Below, in pieces: positions 191 through 7,357 of a stretch of 64,000 nt of DNA (positions are counted from its first letter, which is position 1; each line of letters begins with the position of its first letter). This stretch comes from Alphaproteobacteria bacterium (lineage in GTDB: Bacteria > Pseudomonadota > Alphaproteobacteria > Thalassobaculales > Thalassobaculaceae). The notes beneath the pieces were generated by a model that was given only the letters and a program-made list of their open reading frames with translations, did no database searches and was not told the origin of the DNA. Where the stretch lies: the NCBI GenBank assembly GCA_024742275.1, contig JANSYS010000020.1, positions 1 to 64,000 on the forward strand, read 5' to 3'. The translations under genes were made by a program, and so were the position numbers.

Positions 191-820
191 TCATCCAGCG
201 CTTTTGGGGAGATTACGTCCAGCACTCACAATCGCGCGCGGGGCGGAGCCCTCAGCGTACTCGGCAAAGATCCGGCGCACGATCCCGGCCTGTTCCTCGT
301 CGATCTCCCGCTCGCCGGTCGTGACCGACCCGTCAGCTTGGATCGATCGCACCATGCGATAGCCGTAGCTGTTGCCGCCCGGAATCTTGCCGGCCTCGAC
401 CCGGCCGCGCTGTCCGCGACGGGTCTTATCGGCGAGATCCTTCAGGAACAGCGCGTTCACGGTGCCCTTGAGCCCGACATGCAGCTCGCTCACCGGGCCC
501 TCTGACAGGGTGACGATCGATATGTCCGCATGCCGCAGACGCTTGAAGACGCCGGCGATGTCTTCCTGGTCGCGGCTGATCCGGTCGAGGGCTTCCGCGA
601 TCAGCACATCGAAGGTGCCGGCTCGCGCCGCCTCCATCAGGGCGACCATGCCGGGCCGGCTCTTGAGGTGGCCACCGCTAATCGCATAGTCGCTGAAGAT
701 CTCCACCACGGTCAGGCCATCACGCTCCGCGCGCTCTCGGCAGAGCCGGACCTGATCCTCGATCGACGCCTCGCGCTGATGGTCCGAGGAATAGCGGGCG
801 TAGATCACAGCGCGGGTCAT
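191..820 (-). pseudogene. Serine recombinase (resolvase/invertase N-terminal domain), truncated by the IS21 insertion
   Basis: The protein starts at 820 and shows a serine recombinase catalytic domain: YARYSSDHQ near residue 8 carries the nucleophilic serine, and ALDRISRDQEDI is the conserved arginine segment. The beginning of the recombinase DNA-binding region (GKIPGGNSYGYRMV, then RRIFAEYAEG) follows. At position 231/230 the frame runs into the IS21 tip, which supplies the last codons and a stop, so only about 196 native residues remain. Large serine recombinases of this type are normally around 500 aa or more, so the zinc-ribbon and coiled-coil part is lost. The catalytic domain alone is unlikely to perform site-specific integration. 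Confidence 0.85.
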
Positions 821-850: not shown

Positions 851-1978
851 TTAGGCCGAATCCTGATCCGACATCCCGGCGAAATCTGGGCCGGGGCCTG
901 TCGACCTGTTTAACGGGGCGGTTGCCCCAACCTGCTGGCGGTACTTCTGGAGCAGGCCGTGATAGCGGCGCATGGCGTGGTGCTCGCGGGCGTGATTGTA
1001 GTGGGCTTCCGTCGTCCGGCCATCAGCATGGTGCAGCAGAAGCCGCCCGAGATGCACGAGCTCGGGGTCTTCCTCGCCGAGGGCGGTGACCGCGATATCC
1101 CGGAAGAGGTGCGGGCTGATCGGACGGCCGAAGGCCTGCTCTGTGTGTTGTGTGAGCCGGCCGTAGAGCGCCTCACTGGTAAACGGCCGACCGCGCGCGC
1201 CCACCAGAAACGTCGTATCCTGGCGCCCGCGCAGCAGAACTGGGCGCCAGACTGTGAGATAGCGCTCCAGCGGATCACAAAGCAGCTCCGGCAGTCGGGC
1301 CTCATATGGCCGTCCGTTCTTCATAGCCTCAGCGGGAAGCCGGATCCAGTATCCGTCCGGCTGCTCGGTCAGGCTCTCTCCCAGTCGCAGGGAGACGAGG
1401 TTTGCGCGGCGGAGTGGCCGGAAGATGAGGAGCAGGATGGTCAGCCCATCGCGATAGAGTGCCGCTCGCCAATCCCGTCGCAGCGATGTCTCTTCTTCGG
1501 CCCGTTGCATCAGAGAGGCGCCGAGAGCCAGCAGGTCCTCCACTGGAACCATCCGGGCACGCTTGTCCCGACTGGGCTGAGCGGTGCTCTTCAGCCGCTG
1601 CCGGATCCGCTTGAGCCCCGGCTCCGGGCCATCGGGATCGAGGATATGCAGGATGATATCAAGGTCCCGGATCCGGCCGGCCAGGGTCTTGGACGTGATC
1701 TGGCTTTGGAGCTCCTCGACATAGAGCCGGACCCGGTCCTGGGTCGCCCGTTCACGCGGGGATGCCTGTGGATCGAGCCATCCCCTCGACTGCAGGAAGG
1801 TCAGCCAGCGGCCATAGCTGGATGCTACGGTCCGCCTCGTGTTAGGCCGCCAGTGATGGGCGGCACCGTCAGCGGCGAAGATTTCCGGGGCTGGTGCCTG
1901 AGCCTGCTCCTAGGCGAGACGGTCCCGGTCAGGCCAGGAGGGGACAGGAAGGCATGACGCCGTGTTGTGCCAGACCAT
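851..1978 (-). pseudogene. Tyrosine recombinase/integrase with an in-frame TAG near its start
   Basis: The longest uninterrupted ATG frame (851-1552, 233 aa) has the catalytic domain only: FRPLRRANLVSLRLG holds the first arginine, AMKNG the beta-hairpin lysine, HLFRD the HxxR box, and AHYNHA the tyrosine. Reading further upstream in the same frame gives a convincing core-binding domain (RTVASSYGRWLTFLQ, then RIRDLDIILHIL) and a start ATG at 1978. That frame has one interruption, a TAG at 1910-1912 after codon 22, where a tryptophan codon (TGG) would fit. A single base change therefore seems to have killed the gene, unless the stop is read through or translation starts at a weak internal codon. 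It lies 92 bp downstream of the larger recombinase and shares its motif pattern. Confidence 0.72.
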
Positions 1979-2070: not shown

Positions 2071-3732
2071 TTAGTGCTCGACGGCCTGCTGGTTACGCAG
2101 ACCCACATAGGCCCGGGCTGTAGTCTCCAATGACCGGTGCCCCAGAAGCTGTCGAGCCGTCTCCATCTCCGCGGGGCGATGCGAAAGATAGAAGCGGGTC
2201 GTGATCTGCCGCATCAGGTGGACGGTGATCTGCAGGCCCGTCCGTCTGTGAACGAACTTCTGGATCTGCCGCGTGACCGCCTCCGGAGACTTGTGTGCAC
2301 CAGAGCGCGTACCCGGGAAGAGATACTGACCGGAAGCGGTGCCGAAGATATGGCAGGTTCGCTCTAGGTAGGTCTTGAGCATATCGGCGGTCGGGGCCGG
2401 CAGCGTGTAATCGTGCTCGACCCCGTTCTTCACCTCCTCCGAGGGCAGCCGGATCCGAACGGGCCGGTCGCCCGCGATGTGGACGTGTATGCCGAGGCGG
2501 AGGCTTGCGAGGTTCTTCCGCCGGATCGGCCGGATCAGAAGAAGCTCCAGGGCGAGCGCGGATTGCAAATCAAGCGCCTGCTTCCGGCTCAGGCGCTCAA
2601 CGTCAGCAAGTTCCGTGAGAACCTGGACCGGGAGAAGGAGCAACCTGTCGAACGCACCCTGGTCGTCGAACTGATGCAGGAGCTTGGCCGGCCGTTCGCC
2701 CATATGGCCCCGAGGTGCTGACACACGCCCCGAGGCACGCCTGAGCCGTTCCGCGAGATCCCGATCGTCGGGATAACAGTGGCTGGTGATGCGCCGGAGC
2801 ACATGCATCACATTGCTGTCGGTGATTTTGCCCTTCACCGCACCGCGATCCTGGAAGAACCCGATGATCTTGCGCAGTCGCGGTTCGGTCAGCAGATCGG
2901 CGAGTCGCGTGAATGTCCGCAGTTCCTCTCCATCGCGAACGAGGATCCCGAGGAACTGACGTACCTTAAACCGATAGCTGCCGATCGAGCTGTCCTTCAG
3001 GGGACGCACCGGCGCCGTCTGATCGAACAGATCAGCATCCTTGGACAGGCCGGTCAGCCAAGCCTCGAGCTCCTCTAGGAAACCCGGATCACAGTCCTTA
3101 AGGTGCACGGCATAGGCATCCTGGGCAGATGGCGGCTCGACCGGCTGGAGCCCGAGGTCCGGTGCTTCGTCGGCGAGCTTGTTCCAATGCCGCGCGAGTT
3201 CTCGAACCTGCCGCTGCGGAGAGGTCTTGAGCGTCCGGTGTTCGAGGTGGCGCCGGAAGTCGCTCAGCGTGTTCGTGTCCACGCACCGAGGCGACAGACT
3301 TCGGTCGTTGCACCATGAGACGAAGCGGCCGAGCGAGACCCTGCCCTCAAATGCGGAAAGTCGCTGTTTAACCGACCGCCACTCCGCTGTGAGAGGACGG
3401 GGAGGCGGGTCGATCGGATCAGCGTATCGCTTGATGGCCGCTGATACATCGGAACGAACGGTCCGGAAACGTTTCTCCGTCATCCTGACCGACGACGGTG
3501 CGAAGCGTGCCAGCTTGGGACGCAGCGCATCGAAGGTCGCGGGCGTGCTCTTCAGAGGCAGGCCCAGCATGCGACAAAGCCGTCGGATGGAAGAGGCGAG
3601 GTTGCGCTTGCGGTTTGCGGAGATGGCCTGATCCTGCTCGATCAGGCGGACCACCTCACCGAAGGTCGGTGTGGGCCGCGTGCCTACGAAATCGAACAGA
3701 GGCAGATCAGACTGGGGCGAGTGAGCGGTCAT
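2071..3732 (-). CDS. Tyrosine recombinase (phage-integrase family), 553 aa
   Basis: Catalyses site-specific DNA strand exchange. The catalytic domain fills the last third: RPIRRKNLASLRLG (Arg about 404), SEEVKNG (Lys about 435), HLMRQ (His 505, Arg 508), GHRSLETT (His 532) and Tyr 542, so the full active set is present. The first 340 residues form an unusually long helical DNA-binding region. The start at 3732 is chosen because a GAGGAGG sequence lies 8 bases upstream; an open frame back to 3855 has no comparable signal. It is followed by a smaller paralogous recombinase (now with a stop) and a broken serine recombinase, and preceded by an excisionase-like HTH remnant. It is probably the only working recombinase of this module. 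Confidence 0.88.
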   Translation of the reverse strand: MTAHSPQSDLPLFDFVGTRPTPTFGEVVRLIEQDQAISANRKRNLASSIRRLCRMLGLPLKSTPATFDALRPKLARFAPSSVRMTEKRFRTVRSDVSAAIKRYADPIDPPPRPLTAEWRSVKQRLSAFEGRVSLGRFVSWCNDRSLSPRCVDTNTLSDFRRHLEHRTLKTSPQRQVRELARHWNKLADEAPDLGLQPVEPPSAQDAYAVHLKDCDPGFLEELEAWLTGLSKDADLFDQTAPVRPLKDSSIGSYRFKVRQFLGILVRDGEELRTFTRLADLLTEPRLRKIIGFFQDRGAVKGKITDSNVMHVLRRITSHCYPDDRDLAERLRRASGRVSAPRGHMGERPAKLLHQFDDQGAFDRLLLLPVQVLTELADVERLSRKQALDLQSALALELLLIRPIRRKNLASLRLGIHVHIAGDRPVRIRLPSEEVKNGVEHDYTLPAPTADMLKTYLERTCHIFGTASGQYLFPGTRSGAHKSPEAVTRQIQKFVHRRTGLQITVHLMRQITTRFYLSHRPAEMETARQLLGHRSLETTARAYVGLRNQQAVEH

Positions 3733-3888
3733 CGGATAGCCTCCTCGGGCTATGTGGTCGGACGTGGACACCAGCGGACAATCAGGACAACGCTCCACCG
3801 TACACTCCCGTCTTGAACGATCAGGTGTTGTCCTGAAATCACGCGGTAGGCGCACAAACGACTAAAATCATTGGGTCAGGAGCGGGGC

Positions 3889-4087
3889 TCAGGGCTCTGA
3901 TCCAGAGCGACGCTGAGCCGCCAAAAATGCAGCGAGGTCGTCCTCGCGGATGCGGATCAGACGGCCAACCCGGTAATGCGGGAGGTCTCCCGCAGCCAGA
4001 CGGCGCCGGACCGTCTTGAGGCTCACGTTCAGGGCCTGGGCGACGTCGCCCTGTGAGTCGGCGTGGGGTTTCGACGCCGATCGGCAC
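3889..4087 (-). pseudogene. Excisionase-like helix-turn-helix gene, probably frameshifted
   Basis: The frame ending at 3889-3891 encodes DVAQALNVSLKTVRRRLAAG, then LPHYRVGRLIRIREDDLAAF: a MerR/excisionase-type HTH (HTH_17) with its wing, 56 codons back to 4059. No ATG, GTG or TTG occurs in that frame nearby. In the neighbouring frame a GTG at 4085-4087 leads into GVETPRRLTG, and removing one G from the GGG run at about 4049-4051 would join the two as RLTG-DVAQAL. I therefore read it as a small excisionase/recombination directionality gene with a one-base frameshift. Its position upstream of the tyrosine recombinase fits. The exact start is uncertain, and a non-canonical start remains possible. 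Confidence 0.5.
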
Positions 4088-4228
4088 GATAAACGGTTGA
4101 TATCTCCGGGTTGCGAGGGGTCACACCACGGTGCTGTTTCACAGTCAGGCAGGCGTGGTGAGGGTCGCGCAGGTCGACCGGATGCAACGAGTACTCAGAG
4201 CCAGGAAATACACAGCAGACACATCAAT

Positions 4229-4427
4229 TGACCTGGGTCCGTGAAAGTTGTCCGGGCTGGCGGCTAGGATTTGGCGATATCGAGGTATTGAGGAGGTCGA
4301 TATGAGCCGGAAGCTTACTTGCCGGCAAAACCGCCTCTCGGGTACGGACTACCCGCCGTCCGCAATCATGTGGCCAACGTAGCCAGACTCTAACTCTGGA
4401 ACTGGACCACCTAATGGACCCCGGGTA
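4229..4427. mobile_element. Possible remnant of an IS3-type element (imperfect inverted ends)
   Basis: The left edge TGACCTGGGTCCGTGAAAG and the reverse complement of the right edge, TACCCGGGGTCCATTAGG, align as imperfect inverted repeats, each followed by GTCC a few bases further in. Inside is a good ribosome site (GAGGAGG) before an ATG at 4301 that starts MSRK and stops after 26 codons. The layout resembles an IS with almost all of its transposase deleted. This is pattern reading only and could be chance. Confidence 0.3.
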
Positions 4428-4541
4428 CCGAGACCGTCGACTCCTAAGGCGATTTTTTTTCGCGTTAGGGCTTGTCCACAAAACCCCGCCGGTAATCTGA
4501 ACCTGTCGCGCATCAATGCCACCCTCTCAAGGAGAGCCAAA

Positions 4542-5066
4542 ATGAAACCGAAAGTGACAATTACTACGGGGAACGTAATGGGACTGACCATTACAATGAT
4601 TTCAGATCACGATTTGGAACAAAAGCGGAGCATGTTTAAGTCAACACGCCTCGCAACCGGCCTCAGCATTGCGGAGGCGGCTAACCTGCTCAATGTGTCC
4701 GCAGCAAAAGTGCAACGGTGGGAGAGCGGGCAAACAATGCCAGCAAAGCGCGCCTTTCGCCAAATTCGTGAAGTTGAGCGTTTCCTGATAGCTCAAGCGG
4801 ACTTCGCCTTGAGTCGCATCCGCGCCGAGGCCGTGCAGGTCGGCTGTCTTCCGGAAGCTGTCGAGGTGTGCGTTGCGAGCACCGATGAGGAGGCTAGATC
4901 CAGGGGCTTTCCGACGGTTTCTGCCGCCCGAAAGTGCGCGAGCCTCATTACTGCCGCCATCAACGACCATTTTCCGGATGTGAAGGTCGTCACAGTTCGA
5001 CGTGGCTCAACACCTGCAAGCGCCTACCTTGTGGCCTTGCAAGAGGCCGCCGGCTCCGCTGCCTAA
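4542..5066 (+). CDS. HTH (XRE-like) transcriptional regulator, unknown target
   Basis: 174 aa. Residues about 35-75 form a helix-turn-helix: STRLATGLSIAEAANLLNVS, then AAKVQRWESGQTMPAKRA, the usual Cro/CI arrangement with the RWESG turn. The remaining 90 residues show no family I recognise; they are mixed alpha/beta with a VEVCVAST strand and a conserved-looking DVKVVTVRRG. A GGAG ribosome site precedes the ATG by about 8 bases. Its base composition is lower in GC than the chromosomal genes to the right, in keeping with its place in the island. It stands alone with a terminator downstream at 5198. It could regulate the island or be an antitoxin-like protein, but no toxin partner is visible. 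Confidence 0.7.
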   Translation: MKPKVTITTGNVMGLTITMISDHDLEQKRSMFKSTRLATGLSIAEAANLLNVSAAKVQRWESGQTMPAKRAFRQIREVERFLIAQADFALSRIRAEAVQVGCLPEAVEVCVASTDEEARSRGFPTVSAARKCASLITAAINDHFPDVKVVTVRRGSTPASAYLVALQEAAGSAA

Positions 5067-5197
5067 AGATCGACAGACGGGAGAGGCCCGAGCGGATCGT
5101 CGGCGGAGTGGTAGCCACCGCGCACAACACAGGCCGACAGCCCTGCCGTTGGGGTGCTTTCGAGCAGGGTGACCACGCCCGTCAGGACGACGACACG

Positions 5198-5228
5198 AGC
5201 CCGGTCCACTTCGGTGACCGGGCTTTTT
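5198..5228 (+). terminator. Intrinsic terminator
   Basis: A 9-bp stem (AGCCCGGTC at 5198-5206 with GACCGGGCT at 5216-5224) closes a 9-base loop and is followed by TTTTT. It ends transcription from the HTH gene. The rest of 5067-5462 holds no gene that I can support. Confidence 0.8.
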
Positions 5229-5462
5229 CGTGATCGCGCATGGTCTCAATGCGCTAGTCCGCCGGGCCACCTCTAGTGGTGGTCTTCGGTATCCGGTCTA
5301 TGAGACTCTAGGCGTTGAGGTGTGTTTTTCGGTCAGCAATGTCGCCTTAGAAGCTGACTATGACGGTCTGGTTGACCCGTCTTTGTAAACCGCTCGATCC
5401 CCAGGGCGACCATCTTCCAGGGGCTTGCTTGACAGTCAAATCCTCACTAAACCCATTGCTGT

Positions 5463-5536
5463 GCGGGCGTAGCTCAATGGTAGAGCGAGAGCTTCCCAAG
5501 CTCCAGACGAGGGTTCGATTCCCTTCGCCCGCTCCA
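5463..5536 (+). tRNA. tRNA-Gly (anticodon CCC)
   Basis: A complete cloverleaf: acceptor GCGGGCG pairs with CGCCCGC, D arm AGCTCAATGGTAGAGC, anticodon loop TTCCCAA giving CCC, T arm GAGGG-TTCGATT-CCCTT, discriminator T and an encoded CCA at 5534-5536. The 5' and 3' halves match each other well (one mismatch at the edge of the anticodon stem), so this looks like a genuine working gene rather than a patchwork. It lies inside the accessory region, 400 bp before a second tRNA-Gly half gene. Confidence 0.95.
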
Positions 5537-5943
5537 TAGATGGTTCCTTCCCTGAGTAAGCTTTGCCCGGTTTCTCGCTTTAGGCGCGCGGAGATGTTGA
5601 GCAATGAGCAACATGACGACCCGCGCACGCCTGTACAAGTCTCACAGTATCCTGGCTGGGGGAGTGGTTGTCATGCCCACGGTCACACCTGCTAATCACG
5701 TGGGTCAACAGACTCCTTCAGTATACCGGTATGCAAAGGTGTCGCCGCTATCCGAGCACTTGCTTCTTACGCCAGGATCGCCGCATATAGACAGTTTTGC
5801 CACTATACAGAGATTATTTCTCAGCTCATGGGTATTTTATCAATCTACACCTTGATGGTGTATCAGGTAGAATTCTGCAGCACTCTTCTTCAGATTAATA
5901 CACCTGAAAATACGTTGAACCAACACTTTAGAGTATCTTCAAG
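5537..5943. other. AT-rich stretch without genes between tRNA-Gly and the tRNA-Gly half gene
   Basis: The composition drops to AT-rich, especially 5790-5940, in sharp contrast to both sides. The short open frames here have no good ribosome site or recognisable protein, and I do not call them. It is probably the terminal non-coding part of an integrated element. Confidence 0.6.
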
Positions 5944-5993
5944 ACAGCTTCCCAAGCTGTATGTCGTGGGTTCGATTCCCATCACCCGCTCCA
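5944..5993 (+). other. 3' half of a tRNA-Gly(CCC) gene; likely attachment-site scar (att)
   Basis: The sequence supplies one strand of the anticodon stem, the TTCCCAA loop, the other strand (ACAGC/GCTGT, perfect), variable region, T arm with TTCGATT, 3' acceptor strand CACCCGC and CCA. The D arm and 5' acceptor strand are missing; AT-rich sequence stands in their place. It shares AGCTTCCCAAGCT and GGGTTCGATTCCC with the complete tRNA at 5463 but differs in the variable region, T stem and acceptor stem, so it comes from a different tRNA-Gly gene. Integrases often recombine in the anticodon or T loop and leave such a 3' half at one island end. Its full partner should lie left of the window. Confidence 0.75.
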
Positions 5994-6127
5994 TCTATTG
6001 TTTCAAGGCGTCTGCGGTCCTTCGGATTGCGGCTGTTGCATGGCTGCAACGCTGACCCAGAATTGATCTGCGTTGGAACGTATGGCGTGGTTAGGTTCGG
6101 CCTCCGACCGATAGACGGGAGCCGACC

Positions 6128-7357
6128 ATGGCCATCAGGCGCCTCTTTTTCCTTCTTGCCTTATCCGCGCTACTGTCGGCGCCGCTGCAGACCGCTGGCG
6201 CCGAGACCCGACCGTGGAGCGAGATCGTCGCCACTGCCGGCGGACAGACGGTTCACTTCAATGCATGGGGCGGGGACGACAGGGTCAACGCTTACATAGA
6301 CTGGGTCGGCGAACGGGTGGACGCGCTCTATGGCATCGAGTTGGTGCATGTGAAGTTGTCCGACACCGCCGACGCCGTCAGTCGAGTGCTGGCGGAAAAG
6401 GCCGCTGGACGGACGGCGGACGGGTCGATCGACCTGATCTGGATCAACGGCGAGAACTTCGCGGCGATGAAGGCGAACGACCTTCTGCACGGTCCCTGGG
6501 TCGCCGGGGCGCCGAGCTTCGCGTTGGTGGATGTTGATGGCAAGCCGACGACCGTCGTGGATTTCTCGGTCCCCACGGACGGGCTCGAAGCCCCCTGGGG
6601 CATGGCCCAGTTCACCATGATGTACGACAAGGCCTATGTGGAGAGCCCGCCACGCAACGCGACCGCGCTGCTCGATTGGGTGCGGGCCAACCCGGGACGG
6701 TTCGCCTATCCGCAACCGCCGGACTTTCTGGGGACGACGTTTCTCAAGCAGGTCTTGGCCATGACGACCGACAGACCGGACCTGCTCGCGGGCCCGCTGG
6801 ACGTGACGGGCGGCGATGCGGCGGCGCTTTCGGTTACGGAGCCGCTCTGGGCGTATCTGGACTCTCTCCACCCGCACCTTTGGCGCGACGGCCGGGCGTT
6901 TCCTACGGATGAGGCCGCGCTCCGGCGGTTGCTGGGCGACGGAGAGGTCAGTTTCGCCCTTGCGTTCAACCCGGCCCGGGCCAGCGCGGCGATAGAGGCC
7001 GGTGAACTGCCGGATACGGTGCGCACTTTCGTCTTCGATGGCGGCACCATCGGCAACACGCATTTCGTCGCTGTTCCCTTCAATGCTGCGGGTAAGGAGG
7101 CGGCCATGGTCGTCGCCGACTTCCTGATGTCGCCCGAGGCGCAGCTCCGCAAGCAGGACCCGCGGGTCTGGGGCGATTTCACCGTTCTGGATGTGGCCGC
7201 CCTGGCGGATGGCGATCGCAGGGCTTTCGCGGCGCTGCCGCTCGGTGTGGCCACTTTGTCTCCCGAGGAACTCGGTCCGGTTTTGCCGGAACCGCATCCG
7301 AGTTGGGTCGGATGGTTGGAGGCTCAATGGGAACGGCGCTACGCGGCGGGGCGATGA
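6128..7357 (+). CDS. ynjB: ABC transporter substrate-binding protein, YnjB type
   Basis: A periplasmic solute-binding protein of 409 aa. A signal peptide is clear (MAIRRLFFLLALSALLSAP, cleavage near AGAE). The mature part has VHFNAWGGDDRVNAYIDWV, DGSIDLIWINGENFAAMK and EAPWGMAQFTMMYDKAYV, the pattern of the YnjB subfamily of extracellular binding proteins. A GGGAG ribosome site lies 6 bases before the ATG. The next gene encodes a fused double permease of the YnjC type, 59 bp downstream, so the two form an importer. In E. coli the ligand of YnjBCD is not firmly known. The usual ATPase gene (ynjD) does not follow here. Confidence 0.85.
   Translation: MAIRRLFFLLALSALLSAPLQTAGAETRPWSEIVATAGGQTVHFNAWGGDDRVNAYIDWVGERVDALYGIELVHVKLSDTADAVSRVLAEKAAGRTADGSIDLIWINGENFAAMKANDLLHGPWVAGAPSFALVDVDGKPTTVVDFSVPTDGLEAPWGMAQFTMMYDKAYVESPPRNATALLDWVRANPGRFAYPQPPDFLGTTFLKQVLAMTTDRPDLLAGPLDVTGGDAAALSVTEPLWAYLDSLHPHLWRDGRAFPTDEAALRRLLGDGEVSFALAFNPARASAAIEAGELPDTVRTFVFDGGTIGNTHFVAVPFNAAGKEAAMVVADFLMSPEAQLRKQDPRVWGDFTVLDVAALADGDRRAFAALPLGVATLSPEELGPVLPEPHPSWVGWLEAQWERRYAAGR

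Follow-up and report, generated by a model that had tools for sequence, protein, structure and literature searches.

Among elements that integrate into tRNA genes, the tRNA-dependent lysogeny described by Guerrero-Bustamante & Hatfull (2024) is distinguished by short cores of 8-17 bp, by junctions at which no tRNA is rebuilt, and by a foreign tRNA of the same isotype carried on the phage (PMC10865867). Integration of this kind becomes lethal once the phage tRNA is lost; its targets in Table 2 of that study are tRNA-Lys-TTT, Ile2-CAT and Leu-CAA, and the phages listed there at tRNA-Gly-CCC rebuild the gene (PMC10865867). To date the demonstrated cases of tRNA-dependent integration are a few temperate phages (mycobacteriophages), while others have been suggested elsewhere, and its prevalence outside Actinobacteriophages needs further work according to the authors (PMC10865867). 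For prophages and islands of Sinorhizobium meliloti it has been described that an inactivated tRNA is replaced by one of the same isoacceptor, which is closer to the tRNAs of unrelated bacteria (PMC11476347, PMC12429752). GInt islands, another type considered below, bear the ginABCD operon (three integrases and a small HLH protein) at one end and are AT-rich at the other.

Here we describe a locus at the start of contig C70 (75,937 bp) in a draft genome of 4.69 Mb and 88 contigs; the whole stretch of 64,000 nucleotides that was analysed is called the window. Our results point, with a probability of about 0.87, to an element that integrated through a 14-bp core into the single native tRNA-Gly(CCC) gene, rebuilt none, and supplies a foreign tRNA-Gly(CCC) of its own.

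A split native tRNA-Gly(CCC) gene and its exact empty site

The part of the window which concerns the tRNA sequences and the native flank contains the following features.

5463-5536, plus strand: complete tRNA-Gly(CCC), borne by the element (ARAGORN; Rfam 69.5 bits)
5943-5993, plus strand: attR, holding nt 25-75 of the native tRNA-Gly(CCC) as its displaced 3' part, 100% identical to G002, G003, G004 and G009
5943-5956, plus strand: attachment core GACAGCTTCCCAAG, common to attR and to attL on contig C60, the longest common string of the junctions
5994-7357, plus strand: native right flank, made of a spacer and an ABC-transporter substrate-binding gene (6128-7357, NF008633), which continues the intact tRNA in G002, G003 and G004

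The 3' part comprises 51 nt, namely positions 25-75 of the 75-nt native gene, and when it is aligned with the complete tRNA the two differ in 12 columns, eight of which form four compensated stem pairs (by position 6/67 in the acceptor, 11/24 in the D, 27/43 in the anticodon and 49/65 in the T stem). These four compensated pairs indicate two separately evolved, well-formed tRNAs rather than a gene and its decayed copy, and to judge from the pairing selection has acted on each of them as a separate, working tRNA. The first-pass annotation had reported a complete tRNA at 5463 together with a 3' half that is not its copy, and both observations are confirmed, with the correction that the 3' part starts at 5943, one base before the 5944 it had given; its claim that the half is not a duplicate of the gene at 5463 agrees well with the 12 differing columns and the four compensated pairs. 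Decay of a duplicate was also considered as a candidate, and is ruled out by the sequence of the 5' half as well as by the location of the native 5' half on C60.

In the three congeners G002, G003 and G004 and in the family member G009, an intact tRNA-Gly(CCC) matches the 3' part at all 51 of its positions, and to the right of this intact gene the DNA of the three congeners is syntenic with the window from 5994 onward, at 74.7-78% DNA identity. A pattern search of the window's own genome found the native 5' half (the first 25 nt) exactly, 25/25 and in a single occurrence, on the minus strand of contig C60 at 5329-5353, and from 5354 to about 15.6 kb the same contig is matched by the sequence that adjoins the intact tRNA on its left in G002 and G004. 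The 51/51 match to the native gene of the relatives, taken together with the unique and perfect 25/25 match of the 5' half, excludes chance. The longest string common to both junctions is GACAGCTTCCCAAG, 14 bp on the 5' side of the anticodon stem and in the anticodon loop, and a script joining the native flanks over this core yields a 75-nt gene which is found letter for letter in all four relatives (L063, L064, L065, L066); the empty attB site is thus an intact tRNA-Gly(CCC) in each of them. Since the halves rejoin exactly over the core, the split is explained by site-specific integration in the anticodon arm, and this integration would be recent enough for both orphaned halves to be still free of substitutions.

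In the first reading of the letters, an island was proposed to have split a second tRNA-Gly gene, the 3' half being the native end of that gene, with AT-rich DNA ahead of it and with the complete tRNA as possible island cargo. The identical intact gene in four relatives, the syntenic flank and the 5' half on C60 uphold the first part of this view, the DNA between the two tRNA sequences (5537-5942) is AT-rich as described, and the complete tRNA lies inside the element; it moreover belongs to the isoacceptor of the broken gene, of which no other intact copy was found. The comparison with an empty site, which had also been proposed, turned out as reported above, and a half gene without an island, as simple decay would leave it, is not what is seen. 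On the other hand, a tRNA-Gly to the left with a matching 3' half had been expected and does not exist; only the 5' half does, and it lies on another contig.

The element, its ends and its junctions

From the complementary halves and the synteny we infer an element which consists of C60:1-5314, an unassembled middle and C70:1-5956, and which is integrated in the anticodon arm; no overlap of the contig ends that would link C60 with C70 was found. The visible features of its two ends are listed below, in window coordinates unless C60 is named.

191-820, minus strand: truncated serine recombinase near the contig end (Pfam Resolvase 1.7e-24; PHROG 95 integrase 3.8e-46, profile 87-283 of 651)
851-1552, minus strand: second tyrosine recombinase, of 233 aa when read from the first ATG, frame open upstream (PHROG 216 integrase 5.7e-8; frame translation)
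2071-3855, minus strand: 594-aa tyrosine recombinase (Pfam Phage_integrase 8e-11)
3892-4086, minus strand: HTH_17 excisionase-like small protein (Pfam HTH_17 1.6e-13)
4542-5066, plus strand: 174-aa helix-turn-helix protein (Pfam HTH_31 1e-7)
5537-5942, no strand: right end of the element, AT-rich and bearing CTACACC/TACACC motifs at 5845, 5857 and 5899
C60 (L071) 3119-5173: 684-aa tyrosine recombinase with a Phage_integrase domain, ending about 140 bp from attL

Ahead of the 684-aa recombinase, the end of C60 encodes a further tyrosine recombinase, which is cut by the contig end, as well as an HTH_17 protein and two proteins with no family assignment. The 684-aa recombinase adjoins attL and is probably the integrase of this event. 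CTACACC-like motifs cluster near both ends of the element, recurring near attL, and the number of 7-mers shared by the two ends exceeds chance only weakly (it is reached in 11 of 300 shuffles); the CTACACC/TACACC motifs are possible, if weak, candidates for integrase arm sites. On C60, the attP-derived side of attL (5297-5316) begins with GTGTAGT and has the matching ACTACAC 13 nt on, and an 18-nt inverted repeat (78%) is located at 5191-5208, about 90 bp away; these are perhaps integrase binding sites as well.

In about 11 kb of visible element ends, where recombinases and DNA-binding proteins are found, there are no structural phage genes, and the element may be a prophage, an ICE or an integrated plasmid. 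At the extreme start of the window, the frame 3-107 resembles by eye the start of an IS21-type transposase, with no match in Pfam; an insertion sequence at 1-190 could be the cause of both the truncation of the serine recombinase and the contig break. Beyond the element, directly left of the integration site, C60 encodes at 5502-6722 a glycine-rich repeat protein, by eye of the RTX calcium-binding type.

As for the junctions, the hybrid at attL scores 19.1 bits as a tRNA and the half at attR 23.6 bits, with the cut-off at 29 bits and with intact scores of 69.5 bits for the gene at 5463 and 74.3 bits for the intact gene of G002. ARAGORN finds no tRNA in the attL stretch of C60, the 3' side of attL shows no pairing with the acceptor stem of the native gene, and attP is without a tRNA 3' half and does not regenerate the target. 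Neither junction is predicted to encode a functional tRNA.

These features would fit a scenario in which an element with a tyrosine recombinase crosses over in the 14-bp core of the sole native tRNA-Gly(CCC) gene, the short core in the anticodon arm probably being all that the integrase requires, so that the native 5' half would be left at attL on C60 and the native 3' half at attR (5943-5993). Because attP resembles the gene only in the core, integration would rebuild no tRNA; the carried tRNA-Gly(CCC) at 5463-5536 would then replace the lost isoacceptor during the integrated state, and the native gene would be restored upon precise excision.

The carried tRNA and the competing explanations

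The complete tRNA is found on the element side of attR, about 406 bp away, and in the whole genome tRNA-like CCC anticodon arms (TTCCCAA) occur only at the two junctions and in the gene at 5463, which is the only intact one found. Its identity is 82.7-84% to the native gene and at most 89.2% to tRNA-Gly(CCC) genes of the host family, and rises to 95.9% for other families in the class; to an enterobacterial tRNA it is 94.6%. As it is closer to tRNAs outside the family than to any family member, it was acquired from outside. Moreover 5 of the first 27 positions distinguish its 5' half from the native one, in matched stem pairs, and by these sequence comparisons both halves of the tRNA are foreign. 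The carried tRNA is presumably expressed and needed for the fitness of the integrant; against this, a sigma-70-like promoter was looked for immediately upstream of 5463 and not found.

How strong this need might be is a question of codon reading. In a crude set of ORFs from the window, about 16% of the glycine codons are GGG. The genome also has genes for tRNA-Gly(TCC), which could read GGG by wobble. In the same genus, two single-contig genomes of 1.5 Mb (G001 and G005) give best matches of only 75-77% to the native tRNA-Gly(CCC), and as they have no close CCC match, the loss may be tolerated; the need for the carried tRNA may accordingly be partial, given the TCC genes and these congeners. 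It can be added that the two 1.5-Mb genomes share their genus with genomes of 4.7-5.6 Mb.

Such considerations give some room to the explanation that integration took place through the short core as above, with the carried tRNA-Gly(CCC) being just one of several cargo tRNAs and the loss being covered by tRNA-Gly(TCC). In fact the CCC tRNA-Gly can be missing in reduced relatives, and the unseen middle of the element could hold other tRNAs; however, the intact tRNA in the visible ends is of exactly the disrupted isoacceptor, its gene is intact at 69.5 bits, and a CCC gene is retained by the full-size members of the family, and we regard this explanation as unlikely while ranking it first among the alternatives. 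Simple decay or a chromosomal rearrangement with its breakpoint in the tRNA, involving no mobile element, would account for halves lying on different contigs, as they do after a translocation, but it is very improbable in view of the duplicated 14-bp core, the recombinase genes inside both ends, the AT-rich ends and the absence of any lost base of the gene, all of which argue for site-specific integration. Finally, the order of a complete tRNA and then a 3' fragment in the same orientation is the usual signature of a classical tRNA island (PMC4383910), in which the gene at 5463 would be the regenerated target (native 5' half with the 3' half of attP), 5943-5993 the displaced fragment and the 400 bp between them the remnant of the element, but this is scarcely credible, being contradicted by the true native 5' half, which sits on C60 beside the native left flank and a recombinase, by the 5 differences between the 5' half of the 5463 gene and the native one, and by the DNA left of 5463 (recombinases, serine recombinase), which is unlike the left flank of the relatives.

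Relatives of the element and comparison with described systems

We return to the reading of an element which splits the native gene and brings its own tRNA-Gly(CCC). No relative of its 684-aa recombinase was found in genome contigs, viral contigs, plasmids, phages or 290 whole genomes, and an exact search for related elements with the 21-bp attL/attP pattern gave no match. Proteins distantly related to the 594-aa recombinase (25-43% identity) occur on alphaproteobacterial plasmids and in five further genomes of the order; those checked in the order have no tRNA-Gly nearby. The gene order of HTH, large recombinase and small recombinase is seen again on plasmids of two Alphaproteobacteria, Roseomonas and Pukyongiella. 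With paired tyrosine-recombinase modules that resemble those of alphaproteobacterial plasmids and a 684-aa integrase without a detected relative, the element might be a plasmid- or ICE-like one using tRNA-dependent integration, and replacement of the target by a carried isoacceptor might then be a general strategy which is not confined to phages; we consider this extension tentative, and rather doubtful than probable.

Among other records with a complete tRNA-Gly(CCC), the one of Enterobacter from the plasmid/phage screen adjoins chromosome-type genes, and a Pseudomonas phage record appears to contain chromosomal flank. In the 77-kb plasmid NZ_CP073666.1 of Burkholderia contaminans, about 2.6 kb separate a complete tRNA-Gly(CCC) from a gene of the phage-integrase family, and other B. 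contaminans plasmids give similar matches; this plasmid could be another element bringing its own target tRNA. Elsewhere in the genome of the window, contig C15 (27,804 bp) has, in the region of 3.8-12.8 kb, some 20 closely packed tRNA genes representing many isotypes, a number of them low-scoring; the array is of phage or organelle type. Contig C8 is also rich in tRNA genes.

Compared with known systems, the locus shares with Prochlorococcus tycheposons, as these are described second-hand (PMC10872708), a tRNA at the border and a tyrosine recombinase. As for a possible relation to the GInt islands, the locus has several tyrosine recombinases and its right end is AT-rich, but the recombinases lie at both ends. 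The tRNA islands of Islander have in common with it a tyrosine recombinase, a tRNA gene and a crossover in the anticodon arm, a known sublocation (PMC4383910); unlike them, attP here is without the tRNA 3' half and the target gene is not regenerated. This matters in practice for programs that detect islands by matching a tRNA to its own fragment, as they would misplace such an island by giving it a wrong left end.

With the Sinorhizobium meliloti elements, the locus shares a host that is probably alphaproteobacterial, as the relatives of its recombinases and of its flanking transporter gene suggest, and a foreign replacement of the same isoacceptor; as far as tRNA and origin are compared, those elements differ in using other tRNAs and in being phage-derived. 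The sequence-level features of tRNA-dependent lysogeny that were tested are all present. As in the actinobacteriophages (Fionnbharth, LeBron, Gaia and others), there are a tyrosine integrase, an attB in a host tRNA gene and a short core, 14 bp here, and likewise a foreign cognate tRNA of the same isotype is carried on the element and no tRNA is rebuilt; unlike in those cases, the host belongs to another group, the target is tRNA-Gly(CCC), and the element is known from its two ends. The locus thus extends the picture to an alphaproteobacterium-like host and a new target, with exact empty-site evidence, and illustrates how a single step can exchange a host tRNA gene for a foreign one. Altogether it is a well-supported case of the known tRNA-dependent strategy, in which the target, tRNA-Gly(CCC), is new and the element unusual.
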